Of a stretch of 64,000 nucleotides of DNA, positions 42,922 to 57,427 are shown one piece after another. Origin of the DNA: Zhaonella formicivorans. Lineage in GTDB: Bacteria; Bacillota; DUOV01; Zhaonellaceae. The translations under genes were made by a program, and so were the position numbers. Under the pieces are notes generated by a model that was not told where the DNA came from, did not search any database, and was given only the letters and a program-made list of their open reading frames with translations. Location of the stretch: the NCBI RefSeq assembly GCF_004353525.1, contig NZ_CP085524.1:1460142-1524141 (forward strand). Reading direction: 5' to 3'. Within the stretch, counting starts at the first letter, position 1, and every line of letters starts with the position of its first letter.

Positions 42922-42954
42922 ATAAAAAAGAATAGGCATAATTTTTGCCTATTC
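42922..42954 (-). terminator. Terminator overlapping the Nif3 stop
   Basis: GAATAGGCA (42930-42938) and TGCCTATTC (42946-42954) form a perfect 9-bp stem. On minus TTTTTTATTC follows. It should end part of the TrmK-Nif3 transcript. Confidence 0.75.
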
Positions 42955-44072
42955 TATACTATTTGCCATGGATCTTTTTCCGTGACAGCCATAGCAACAA
43001 AAATATTATTCTGCTGAGCATCCAAAGCTCTTTCCAAATAAGCAGCCAGAAAAGGAAGGCTGACAATTTCCGTGCCAAAATGTCCTGCATCAACCAGGGC
43101 CAAATTTAAATCCCGCGCTACTTGAGCCTCGTGATGTCCTAATTCGCCCGTAACCAATGCGTCAGCCCCCGCTGAAGCGGCAGCTGCGATCAGGTGTTTT
43201 CCTGAACCGCCGCATACGGCCACGGTAGCAATTATTTGTTCAGGATTGCCCGCTAGGCGCACGGCAGGAAGAGCAAGTCTTTTTTTAACCTGTTCGGCAA
43301 ACCGGGCGAGACTCACGGGTTCAGGGAGTCTGCCAATTCTGCCTAAACCATGCTCTTTAATTTGATTGGCCAGCGGATATAAGTCGTAGGCTACCTCCTC
43401 ATAAGGGTGGGCAGCAAGCATAGCATCAAGCACTTTTCCCAGCCTGCTTTCCGGAACAATAGTTTCCAAACGGAATTCTTCTACTTCCTCCATCCTGCCT
43501 TTAGCTCCTATAAAGGGGTTAGTGCCTTCCAATGGCAAGAAAGTTCCCGTACCAGAGACCCGGAAAGTGCAATGGGAATAATTGCCGATGTGGCCCGCGC
43601 CCGCATCACCAATGGCCTGCCGTACCGCCGATTCGTGCTCTCTTGGTACGAAGACAGTTAATTTATACAATGTTTCCCGGTATTTAGGCTGGAGAACTTT
43701 TACGTCCACCAAGCCCAGCTTTTTAGCCAATTGGGCGCTGACTCCTTCCCCGGCATGGTCAAAATTGGTATGCAGGGCTATAACTTGTAATTCCTCTTTA
43801 ATAATCTTTTGCAGCAGTTGCCCCAGGGGCGAATCAAAGCGCAAAGTCTTTAGCGGTTTAAAAAGAAAGGGGTGATGGCTGATTACCAGGTTTGCACCTT
43901 TTTCCAAGGCTTCTTCCAGCACAGAAACACTCATATCCAAACAGAGCATTATTCCCTCTACTTCTGCAGAGGGGTCACCAATCAAGAGCCCCGTGTTATC
44001 CCATTCTTCAGACAGCTGGCTGGGAGCTAACTGTTCCAAAACCTTGAGCACCTGTCGGCAAATTACCGGCAT
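42954..44072 (-). CDS. Nif3-like dinuclear metal centre protein (YqfO type)
   Basis: The 372-residue protein has metal-binding Nif3 motifs at both ends: WDNTGLLIGD, NLVISHHPFLF and HTNFDHAGEG in the N-terminal half, and GELGHHEAQVA and DAGHFGTEI near the end. A YqfO/CutA1-like domain is inserted (about 135-235). The function is still debated; GTP cyclohydrolase activity has been proposed for relatives. Its start overlaps trmK by 10 bp, an order conserved in many Firmicutes. Confidence 0.93.
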   Translation of the reverse strand: MPVICRQVLKVLEQLAPSQLSEEWDNTGLLIGDPSAEVEGIMLCLDMSVSVLEEALEKGANLVISHHPFLFKPLKTLRFDSPLGQLLQKIIKEELQVIALHTNFDHAGEGVSAQLAKKLGLVDVKVLQPKYRETLYKLTVFVPREHESAVRQAIGDAGAGHIGNYSHCTFRVSGTGTFLPLEGTNPFIGAKGRMEEVEEFRLETIVPESRLGKVLDAMLAAHPYEEVAYDLYPLANQIKEHGLGRIGRLPEPVSLARFAEQVKKRLALPAVRLAGNPEQIIATVAVCGGSGKHLIAAAASAGADALVTGELGHHEAQVARDLNLALVDAGHFGTEIVSLPFLAAYLERALDAQQNNIFVAMAVTEKDPWQIV

Positions 44073-44755
44073 GCTAATACACCCTCCAAGAGCTTAATTT
44101 TTTCCTGCAGCTCAATTTTTCTTTGCCGGACTTCCAGGCTTTCAGCCTGTTCCAACGAAGAGACTATTTTACACATGTCCTCCAGCATTTTTTCCGCATA
44201 GGGCACCAGCAAGGGGGGACGGTTATTCAGAATAACAGGACCTAGTTCCAACGCAAGCCAGTCGGTTATAGACTGCCTGCCTTGAACCGCTGAGATTATT
44301 ACATAGATGATCCCATCATCTGCAACCAATTCCTCAGCAGCTATACGCCAATTATGCTCCGTTAACCAGCGTCGCACATTTGCCGCACCTACCATGGGCT
44401 GCAGCACCAGCTGCTGCAGCCTGCTTACTACTTGCGGGCTGCGCTCCAGAATACCTTGGATCGTGCTGCTGCCCATACCGGCTAAAACCGCGACCTGTGC
44501 TTCCCCCGGACTTACAGGCTCCAAGCCGTCGCCCAAGCGGACGGCTATTTTTTCCGCTAAATTACGGGCCTTAACTTGGGCCAGAGCGCTTTCATAAGGT
44601 CCGCGGTGAACATCAACTGCTATAGCCCGCGGCGTGATGCCCTGTTCAACCAAATAAATGGGCAAATAGGCATGATCCGTCCCTATATCTGCTAACGCCG
44701 CTCCCGGTTGTACCAAGGCGGCTATGGCTTGAAGACGCGGGGATAATTTTATTAT
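44063..44755 (-). CDS. trmK: tRNA (adenine(22)-N1)-methyltransferase TrmK, probable AUA start
   Basis: The enzyme methylates A22 of tRNAs. Motifs: ALADIGTDHAYLPIYLV (SAM site), VRLGDGLEPVSPGEAQ, VAVLAGMGSSTIQGIL. The first ATG/GTG/TTG in frame is TTG 44716, without ribosome site. The frame upstream encodes KLSPRLQAIAALVQPG, the family-typical N-terminus, back to two ATA codons (44755-44750) placed 7 bp after GGGAGAG; an in-frame stop lies beyond. I therefore place the start at ATA 44755 (230 aa). The alternative is a 1-base indel in the CCCC run that would otherwise link ATG to this frame. Upstream of rpoD in many relatives. Confidence 0.85.
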   Translation of the reverse strand: MIKLSPRLQAIAALVQPGAALADIGTDHAYLPIYLVEQGITPRAIAVDVHRGPYESALAQVKARNLAEKIAVRLGDGLEPVSPGEAQVAVLAGMGSSTIQGILERSPQVVSRLQQLVLQPMVGAANVRRWLTEHNWRIAAEELVADDGIIYVIISAVQGRQSITDWLALELGPVILNNRPPLLVPYAEKMLEDMCKIVSSLEQAESLEVRQRKIELQEKIKLLEGVLACR

Positions 44756-44773
44756 GGGGCATCTCTCCCTTGC

Positions 44774-45060
44774 TTAGCTGTCAGCTATCAGCCTTCAGCC
44801 AACAGCTTACAGCTATCAGCTAGCTATCAGATACCCTTGCCCTTGCCAAAGGAACTTCTTAGTCCTAATCTCTCAGTCCCTAGTCCCGAGAATCGGCTTA
44901 AAGCCGCGTCCTTAGTCCTTGGTTGCTACTCCTTCACTGCGGCTTACGCCGAGTCATTACTTATTACGATAACCAACGGGTAATTGCTGACAGCTGATGG
45001 CTGACAGCTGATAGCTGATAGCTGATAGCTGATAGCTAACATGCATACTACATGCATGTC
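44774..45060 (+). repeat. Heptad-repeat inverted element, site 4 (largest)
   Basis: Left arm (44774-44840) has 7-bp units like GCTATCA and GCCTTCA. Right arm (44984-45036) has seven or more units of the type TGATAGC, then TAACATGCAT. The arms are reverse complements and could pair over about 50 bases. Between them lies TAGTCCY-type sequence and a small GC hairpin (CGGCTTAAAGCCG). No gene is seen in this gap of over 300 bp. Confidence 0.8.
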
Positions 45061-45085
45061 TATTATACCAAAAAATGCAAAATAA

Positions 45086-45118
45086 CAAACCCCGCCTGCA
45101 TCGTGCAAACGGGGTTTG
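45086..45118 (-). terminator. Terminator of the tRNA cluster
   Basis: CAAACCCCG (45086-45094) and CGGGGTTTG (45110-45118) form a perfect 9-bp stem directly behind the tRNA-Val CCA end. TTATTTTG follows on minus. Confidence 0.88.
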
Positions 45119-45119
45119 C

Positions 45120-45195
<76 letters not shown>

Positions 45196-55796: not shown

Positions 55797-56624
55797 TCAT
55801 TTTAATTCATTACAGGAATGCTCCTTATAGTAAATATCCATAACCTTAGCTGCGGTTTCTTCCACAGCACGGTTGGTTACATCGATGACATGGCACCCTA
55901 ACTTCTCCATAATATCTTTTGCATATTCCAATTCTTTATGAATTCTTTCCATATTGGCATAATCGGCATTTTCCTTTAAACCTAAACTTTTCAGGCGCTC
56001 CGTCCTAATTTGATAAAGCAGTTCCGGATTGATAGTGAGCCCGAATATTTTTCCCGGGGGAAGCTTAAATAGCTCCTCAGGCGGTGCTACCTCCGGCACT
56101 AAAGGTATATTGGCCGCCCTAATTCTCTTGTGGGCTAAATACATGCTGAGCGGTGTTTTCGATGTTCTGGATACTCCAATAATAACCAGGTCAGCATAAA
56201 TGATGCCTCTAGAGTCTTTTCCGTCATCATATTTTACGGCAAAATCAACAGCATCTACCTTGCGGAAATACTGTTCATCCAATTTGCGGATTAACCCCGG
56301 TTCCATTTTCGGGGGCGAATTGCTGATTTTTGCTATAGTTGAGATCATTGGGCCTAAAATATCAACTGTGGGGATGTTCCTTTCAGCAGCCAGTTCTTTT
56401 AAATGCTCTGCCAATTCTCTTACTACCAGCGTATAGGCAATAACACTGTTAAAGCCGCTGGCCTCCTCAATTATCTCAGCTAAATGCTCCTTATCAGCCA
56501 CATAAGGAAAACGCCTGATTTGCATTTCGCCTTCATTGAACTGGCTGATGGCAGCTCGAGCTACTAGTTCCCCGGTCTCTCCCAAGGCATCGGAAATAAT
56601 GTAGATCACAGGTTTGTCGGATAT
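55797..56624 (-). CDS. Pyruvate phosphate dikinase regulatory protein (PDRP), probable AUA start
   Basis: A bifunctional kinase/phosphorylase that inactivates PPDK by ADP-dependent phosphorylation of a Thr next to its catalytic His, and reverses it. Motifs: [14 protein letters not shown] at the start, P-loop [15 protein letters not shown], and [13 protein letters not shown]. The first standard start, GTG 56609, lies more than 20 bp after the ribosome site GGGAGGGG. ATA 56624 lies 6 bp after it and adds SDKP, matching family N-termini (KPVIYVISD). I place the start there. Next to the CcpN-like regulator, as in Bacillus (ccpN-yqfL). Confidence 0.9.
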
Positions 56625-56785: not shown

Positions 56786-57427
56786 TTAGATGCCTTCACT
56801 CAGTTCAACAAAAAGCTTGGTGATATTGGTTTTAGTAAAACGGCCAACCACCTCCAGCTTATCTTTTCCGTCGGGTTTGCCGGTCTTTTTCACCACAGGT
56901 AATCCATCCACTTCATGTTCTATTATTTTCCTTGCAGCTTCATACGCTGTTTCGTGGGGTTCAACCGTAACAATATTGGGCATCCTTGTCATGATTACGC
57001 TGACCGGCATTTTATGCAGATCCCCTTGGCCAAGGGATTGGCGCAGCAAATCCTTCCGCGAAACTACTCCCGTCAAACCTCCTTCCACATCGACCACATA
57101 AAGGGAGCCAACATCTTCGATAAACATGGTCACTATGGCATCATATACAGAAGTGCTTTCCTTGATCACGATAGGCATGGATTTTATCTCGTCAACTTTA
57201 ATCCTCTTCAGTTCATCAGCAATCAAAGCCTGGGAGGATTTTCCGGAATAATAATAACCTACCCTGGGGCGTGCATCCAAAATTCCTGACATAGTAAGGA
57301 TCGCCAGATCCGGCCTTAACGTAGCCCTGGTTAAATCCAGTTTGCTTGCTATCTCTTCGCCGGTTATTGGCCCATGTTTTTTTACAATCTCCACAATCCG
57401 CATTTGGCGTGATGTCAGTTGGATAAT
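56786..57427 (-). CDS. CcpN-like HTH-CBS transcriptional regulator, probable AUU start
   Basis: The protein has a winged HTH (GPITGEEIASKLDLTRATLR, then GILDARPRVGYYY) and two CBS domains (MPIVIKESTSVYDAIVTMF; MPNIVTVEPHETAYEAARKI). In Bacillus, CcpN represses gluconeogenic genes and binds ATP/ADP with its CBS pair. The first ATG (57403) has no ribosome site; upstream the frame encodes IQLTSRQ, matching the family N-terminus, back to ATT 57427 next to GGGGGTGAT. No ATG/GTG/TTG exists before the in-frame stop. It lies directly upstream of PDRP and likely controls PEP/pyruvate flux together with it. Confidence 0.9.
   Translation of the reverse strand: MIQLTSRQMRIVEIVKKHGPITGEEIASKLDLTRATLRPDLAILTMSGILDARPRVGYYYSGKSSQALIADELKRIKVDEIKSMPIVIKESTSVYDAIVTMFIEDVGSLYVVDVEGGLTGVVSRKDLLRQSLGQGDLHKMPVSVIMTRMPNIVTVEPHETAYEAARKIIEHEVDGLPVVKKTGKPDGKDKLEVVGRFTKTNITKLFVELSEGI

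Follow-up and report, generated by a model that had tools for sequence, protein, structure and literature searches.

The trmK gene of Zhaonella formicivorans, encoding a tRNA m1A22 methyltransferase, probably starts at an AUA codon (44755-44753, minus strand), a low-efficiency start to which the ribosome would be guided by a Shine-Dalgarno (SD) sequence. The window is the whole stretch of DNA analysed (64,000 nucleotides; contig NZ_CP085524.1, positions 1,460,142 to 1,524,141 of the forward strand), and all positions are given within it. In the proposed mechanism, ordinary initiation with fMet-tRNA would take place at AUA 44755-44753; we infer that the initiation rate would be low and the first residue fMet. 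A search of the class of this bacterium gave three species in all, the window's own (G000) included, the others being G001 (locus L010) and G002 (locus L011, whose trmK 5' sequence is the same as that of L039, DUOV01000186.1). In this class, trmK carries an AUH codon (H being U, C or A; here AUU or AUA) at the place of the usual AUG, 8 nt downstream of the SD. The relevant features are as follows:

44063..44755, minus strand: trmK, read from ATA 44755 (Pfam PF04816, Methyltransf_18)
44765..44771, minus strand: SD AAGGGAG, seven contiguous pairs with the 16S 3' end, one of them G-U
44760..44762, minus strand: out-of-frame ATG, SD spacing 1
44756..44759, minus strand: CCCC run between the out-of-frame ATG and the trmK frame
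44753..44755, minus strand: ATA, proposed trmK start (residue 1), aligned SD spacing 8; ATT at that place in G001 and G002
44750..44752, minus strand: second ATA, less likely trmK start, SD spacing 11 by arithmetic
44735..44737, minus strand: CGT, Arg7, aligned with the SAM-binding Arg7 of Staphylococcus aureus TrmK (alignment to 7o4m)
44714..44716, minus strand: first TTG in frame, without SD; initiation at this codon would drop Arg7
42954..44072, minus strand: nif3 (DUF34/NIF3), control gene; its ATG overlaps the trmK end by 10 nt
45084..45120, minus strand: terminator-like hairpin of 17 pairs, 3' of the Asn-Met-Glu-Val tRNA cluster and upstream of trmK

Read from ATA 44755, the trmK product matches PF04816 (TrmK) with 184.2 bits against a cut-off of 27, and Methyltransf_18 with 185.1 bits (Pfam profile search); a search of the NCBIfam profiles returned no match. 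On the minus strand, the frame runs from TAA (44776-44774) through GCA AGG GAG AGA TGC CCC to ATA (44755-44753) and ATA (44752-44750), and continues with AAA TTA TCC CCG CGT CTT CAA GCC ATA GCC GCC until TTG (44716-44714). Between the stop and this TTG there is no ATG, GTG or TTG, nor any CTG, ATT or ATC. The original prediction had named the two tandem ATA codons as the only plausible starts before the stop, 7 nt from GGGAGAG, and its codon reading, coordinates and distance are all correct. The 13 codons ahead of TTG 44716 encode IIKLSPRLQAIAA, and this stretch reads as genuine TrmK protein, since its codon changes with respect to the other two species of the class are mostly synonymous (8 of the 10 codon differences from G001 and 9 of the 11 from G002 over the first 13 codons). 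Furthermore, the alignments of six homologous PDB sequences begin at query residue 2, 3 or 4, and the CGT codon falls on Arg7 of S. aureus TrmK, once the additional N-terminal Gly of the 7o4m chain is allowed for in the numbering; this Arg7 has been described as forming a salt bridge to SAM (PMC9190014). The earlier claim that the conserved N-terminus lies upstream of the first ATG/GTG/TTG is confirmed. A protein of 217 aa starting at TTG 44716 would have in its favor the first canonical codon in frame, but is very improbable: this TTG has no SD (dG +0.3), the codons upstream of it differ from those of the relatives mostly synonymously, and the conserved LSPRL would be lost together with the SAM-binding Arg, which is present only with a start further upstream. 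Reading of AUA as Met in this organism was provisionally set aside as well; the ATA at trmK residue 11 corresponds to ATA (Ile) in G001 and to GTT (Val) in G002. Upstream of the gene, a scan found no promoter-like match between the terminator-like hairpin and trmK. An interspersed repeat of the gctgatagctgac type lies at about 44773-45060, ending a few bases from the trmK SD, and has many partial copies elsewhere in the genome; a 1601-base query spanning this region gave 84 genome matches, tRNA genes among them.

The 3' end of the 16S rRNA of this genome reads GGATCACCTCCTTTCT. With G-U pairs allowed, as in the scorer used here, trmK has an SD of 7 bp at spacing 8 from the first ATA; an earlier scorer restricted to exact Watson-Crick pairs had given 4 bp at spacing 9, and was superseded. 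As a reference, 220 sampled ORFs with ATG as best-SD start were taken from 464 kb of the genome; their commonest spacings are 7 (n = 51), 8 (n = 32) and 9 (n = 31), and spacings of 1, 2 and 11 are uncommon (5, 6 and 8 ORFs, respectively). ATA 44755 is preferred over ATG 44762 and TTG 44716 because the SD is placed for the former and not for the others. The strength of the SD is moderate: its energy of -9.3 kcal/mol (sampled-ORF median -11.7, weaker quartile -10.2) makes it weaker than those of three quarters of the sampled ORFs, despite its seven contiguous pairs. Compared with shuffled sequences, the three start regions show no gain in RNA fold stability (z of -0.55, -0.07 and +0.27), and for this reason no structural switch is proposed.

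Two further readings concern codons next to the proposed start. Initiation at the second ATA (44752) would place the start in a column where many homologues carry ATG, GTG or TTG (alignment residue 2), and which the class members fill with ATA, ATT and ATC; it is nonetheless unlikely, as its SD spacing would be 11 (8/220 ORFs) compared with 8 for the first ATA, and in some homologues (L016, L065, L104) the ATG stands at residue 1 instead. On the other hand, translation might begin at ATG 44762, whose own frame closes after 38 codons, and pass into trmK by a frameshift switch at the CCC-C of codon 2. Sites of this kind, with CCC-C immediately following the start codon, are known to favor +1 shifts, and a +1 shift there would enter the trmK frame exactly; we nevertheless hold this to be extremely improbable, given an ATG badly placed for the SD (spacing 1) and the absence of CCC-C at that place in G001 and G002, so that neither the usable upstream start nor the conserved slippery site of a programmed +1 frameshift is found at trmK. 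The 38-codon frame was also considered as a leader peptide and rejected, the SD spacing giving no support to it.

The initiation at the first ATA favored here can be compared with the relatives from the aligned trmK 5' ends, which read AAGGGAGAGATGCCCC followed by ATA ATA AAA in the window, AAAGGAAGAGATGAAA followed by ATT ATT AAA in G001, and AAAGGAGCAAAAGACG followed by ATT ATC AAG in G002. All three genomes have a 7-bp SD at an aligned spacing of 8 to the first AUH codon, and the distance from the SD start to this codon is 16 nt, ungapped, in 3/3; the pairing, its spacing and the recurrence of the arrangement are directly observed, in a set of three species only. Two of them additionally possess a badly placed in-frame ATG: in G001 it lies two codons upstream of the AUH codon at SD spacing 2, and in G002 it lies upstream of the SD, with a best SD energy of its own of -1.3. 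A canonical in-frame option ahead of the N-terminus is absent only in the window's genome among the three. Besides trmK, infC, the classical example of such a start, also appears to begin at ATT in the three class genomes (L119, L120, L121); the SD of L121 contains an in-frame GTG.

What speaks most against conservation of the AUH start is the AGAGATG shared by the window and G001. In G001, AGAGATG AAA ATT ATT AAA is in frame, whereas in the window the same motif is followed by CCCC ATA ATA AAA. An extra C, arising from a sequencing error or a recent mutation, could have cut the true ATG (44762) off trmK, the real start being this ATG plus three bases; sequencing errors often take the form of indels in base runs, and an ancestral trmK ATG, later displaced out of frame by one base, is possible. 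The original prediction had left AUA initiation and a 1-base insertion in the CCCC run as alternatives, the latter to be recognized by relatives having an in-frame ATG with one C fewer. G001 partly matches that description, having its ATG in frame, though just 2 nt away from the SD. The same difficulty affects the window, with its ATG at 1 nt, and these spacings occur in just 6 and 5 of the 220 ORFs, respectively; G002 has no ATG at that place, the 16-nt distance from SD to AUH is kept ungapped in all three genomes, the genome is a single contig, and the trmK reading frame is otherwise uninterrupted. The SD spacing favors the AUA start, and the extra C retains a small probability. The AUH codons at residues 1-2 could also have been kept because isoleucine is wanted there.

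The need for an unusual start was compared between trmK and its neighbor nif3 by searching for ATG, GTG or TTG from -15 to +5 relative to the conserved N-terminus. Such a codon is missing in 9/130 trmK loci and in 0/121 nif3 loci, and since nif3 gives none, the missing canonical starts of trmK exceed chance; left out of these counts, being duplicated or truncated, were L001, L011, L025, L099, L029, L030 and L091, together with a further locus with an unaligned N-terminus, while some duplicates between collections stay in. The nine loci comprise the window's gene, L063 (ATG at -26, 4-base SD match), L168 (only a TTG at -20, no SD) and six from one other order, that of G023 (L145-L150), which are all six full trmK matches found there among eight genomes searched, one genome giving no match and another only a weak one. 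Thirteen further loci of the 130, those of G001 and G002 included, have a canonical codon without SD. In the loci of the G023 order (L145-L150), the rpoD stop is followed by an inverted repeat (GGCAGG...CCTGCC) that overlaps the trmK SD and has a CTG within its second arm; termination, initiation at CUG and re-initiation downstream of rpoD are possible readings of it. Among 80 additional trmK loci, none needs a non-canonical start: 68 have an SD-linked canonical start, 10 a canonical codon without SD, and the remaining 2 nothing in range but an SD-linked start at -21. Outside the class, trmK thus appears to start mostly at ATG/GTG/TTG, and AUH-type starts were not seen there, the order of G023 being a possible exception. 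The share of GTG and TTG among SD-linked starts is 74/176 in trmK and 18/116 in nif3.

A blind tally, in which the codon at a spacing of 7-9 is forced from the single best SD and identical stretches are removed, is noisy; it gave 54 canonical, 0 AUH, 54 other codons and 10 without SD for nif3 (n = 118), and 72 canonical, 9 AUH, 74 other and 49 without SD for trmK (n = 204). The nine AUH rows of trmK are the three class members, L145, L146 and L148 from the G023 order, and L065, L104 and L221; an ATG stands at residue 1 in L065 and L104, and at residue 2 in L221.

An account restricted to trmK was dropped, as two other genes of the window show a like pattern:

56786..57424, minus strand: ccpN, proposed start ATC 57422-57424 (NCBIfam NF053704; nine-pair SD, spacing 7)
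55797..56624, minus strand: ppsR/yqfL-type PPDK/PEP synthase regulator, proposed start ATA 56622-56624 (NCBIfam NF003742; nine-pair SD, spacing 8)

The gene order on the minus strand is glyS, ccpN, ppsR, an IS-like ORF, ..., dnaG-like, rpoD, tRNAs, trmK and nif3 (the dnaG-like and IS-like ORFs are named by resemblance only), so that ccpN lies in the rpoD neighborhood, about 12 kb from trmK. Read from ATC, ccpN matches the CcpN profile NF053704 with 332.1 bits (cut-off 260), residue 1 falling on profile position 1; its 5' end reads GGGGGTGATATT ATC CAA CTG (ATC at 57424), and the next canonical codon, ATG 57403, has no SD. Read from ATA, ppsR matches NF003742 with 323.8 bits against a cut-off of 225 (profile positions 5-267 aligned with residues 4-269) and PF03618 with 341.8 bits; its 5' end reads GGGAGGGGTTATCT ATA TCC GAC (ATA at 56624), and the next canonical codon, GTG 56609, likewise has no SD. 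Both genes seem to use weak starts, AUC and AUA, respectively. In a scan of 338 sampled ORFs (464 kb), 43 had no SD-linked canonical start; AUH made up 77/1113 of the codons scanned in these 43 and 5/22 of those following a strong SD at a spacing of 6-9. The five were those of trmK, ccpN and ppsR, plus two sitting two codons ahead of an ATG or TTG.

The pattern of ccpN and ppsR extends to other genomes. For each gene, 10 and 199 genomes were searched, and the best matches (up to 30 per search) were deduplicated to 47 distinct loci, which therefore do not sample the phylum evenly. AUH is the sole well-placed start in 35/47 of these best-matching ccpN loci, the rest being 2 with both types and the AUH stronger, 9 canonical and 1 unclear; in several ccpN loci the SD itself contains an in-frame GTG, a codon that was not scored as SD-linked. 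For ppsR, the corresponding figure is 29/47 (both types in 4, canonical in 14), with some doubtful rows kept in the 29: L182, with an ATG just ahead of the AUH codon, and L310, L311, L312 and L319, with AUC at residue 4. The cruder blind tally, with 47 loci for each gene, agrees in direction (7 canonical, 19 AUH, 17 other and 4 without SD for ccpN; 4, 28, 15 and 0 for ppsR).

Bacteria rarely use AUH start codons, and the usual gene callers ignore them; therefore, genes starting at them are annotated short or missed. A weak start would probably hold the TrmK enzyme at a low level, and might be sensitive to IF3; regulation of this start through IF3 or formylation is a conjecture. Translation of trmK may also affect nif3 through coupling, because the two genes overlap by 10 nt. 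More broadly, we suggest tentatively, with somewhat less than an even chance of being right, that the rpoD region of Bacillota carries a set of genes whose AUU/AUC/AUA starts are weak by design, ccpN and ppsR in many genomes and trmK within this class, and that these genes together with infC would respond to IF3 or to the fMet supply. If so, carbon metabolism and tRNA modification would be coupled through these starts to how translation initiation is faring. This wider pattern around rpoD is a more interesting lead than trmK itself, and the sign of ccpN and ppsR in many genomes provides a group in which control by IF3 or fMet can be tested. A tRNA methyltransferase with an AUH start would join infC, pcnB and ccpN. 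In E. coli, pcnB encodes an RNA-acting enzyme limited by its weak start codon.

Several weak-start systems are available for comparison. In S. aureus, Ribo-Ret has mapped the starts of infC and ccpN to AUA and that of cvfC1 to AUU (Kohl et al. 2026, PMC13009471); in the same work, reporters of ccpN, cvfC1 and citZ reached about 10% of the AUG activity in poor medium, the ccpN reporter rising to as much as 30% when the medium was rich, and the non-canonical start of ccpN is stated to be conserved in B. subtilis. The main text of that paper does not mention trmK or yqfL, and no report of an AUH start for trmK or ppsR was found among the matches listed in the open-licence literature, as judged from titles and abstract beginnings; an S. 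epidermidis operon with neighboring genes has been described, in passages that name no unusual start (PMC2824700). Like S. aureus ccpN (yqzB), with its AUA start, trmK has an AUH codon after a well-spaced SD in a member of Bacillota; unlike this repressor gene, whose start was mapped and measured, the trmK codon is known from sequence and in this class only, and its SD is moderate, whereas the S. aureus non-canonical starts are reported with extended SDs (PMC13009471). The gene for IF3, infC (AUU-type start; AUA in S. aureus and ATT in the three class genomes), likewise has an AUH codon after an SD, although the autoregulation of E. coli infC by its own product (cited in PMC13009471) has no demonstrated counterpart in trmK. 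An AUU start is also on record for E. coli pcnB (a title cited in PMC13009471). Like trmK, pcnB pairs an RNA-acting enzyme with a weak start codon, in a different enzyme and a different phylum. Streptomyces sigR, whose GTC start is repressed by IF3 (PMC5472188), resembles trmK in using a weak start codon as translational brake and differs from it in codon, function (a sigma factor) and phylum. With a well-spaced SD and no better-placed AUG, GUG or UUG, trmK is best read as a further gene that would join the known class of weak AUH starts.
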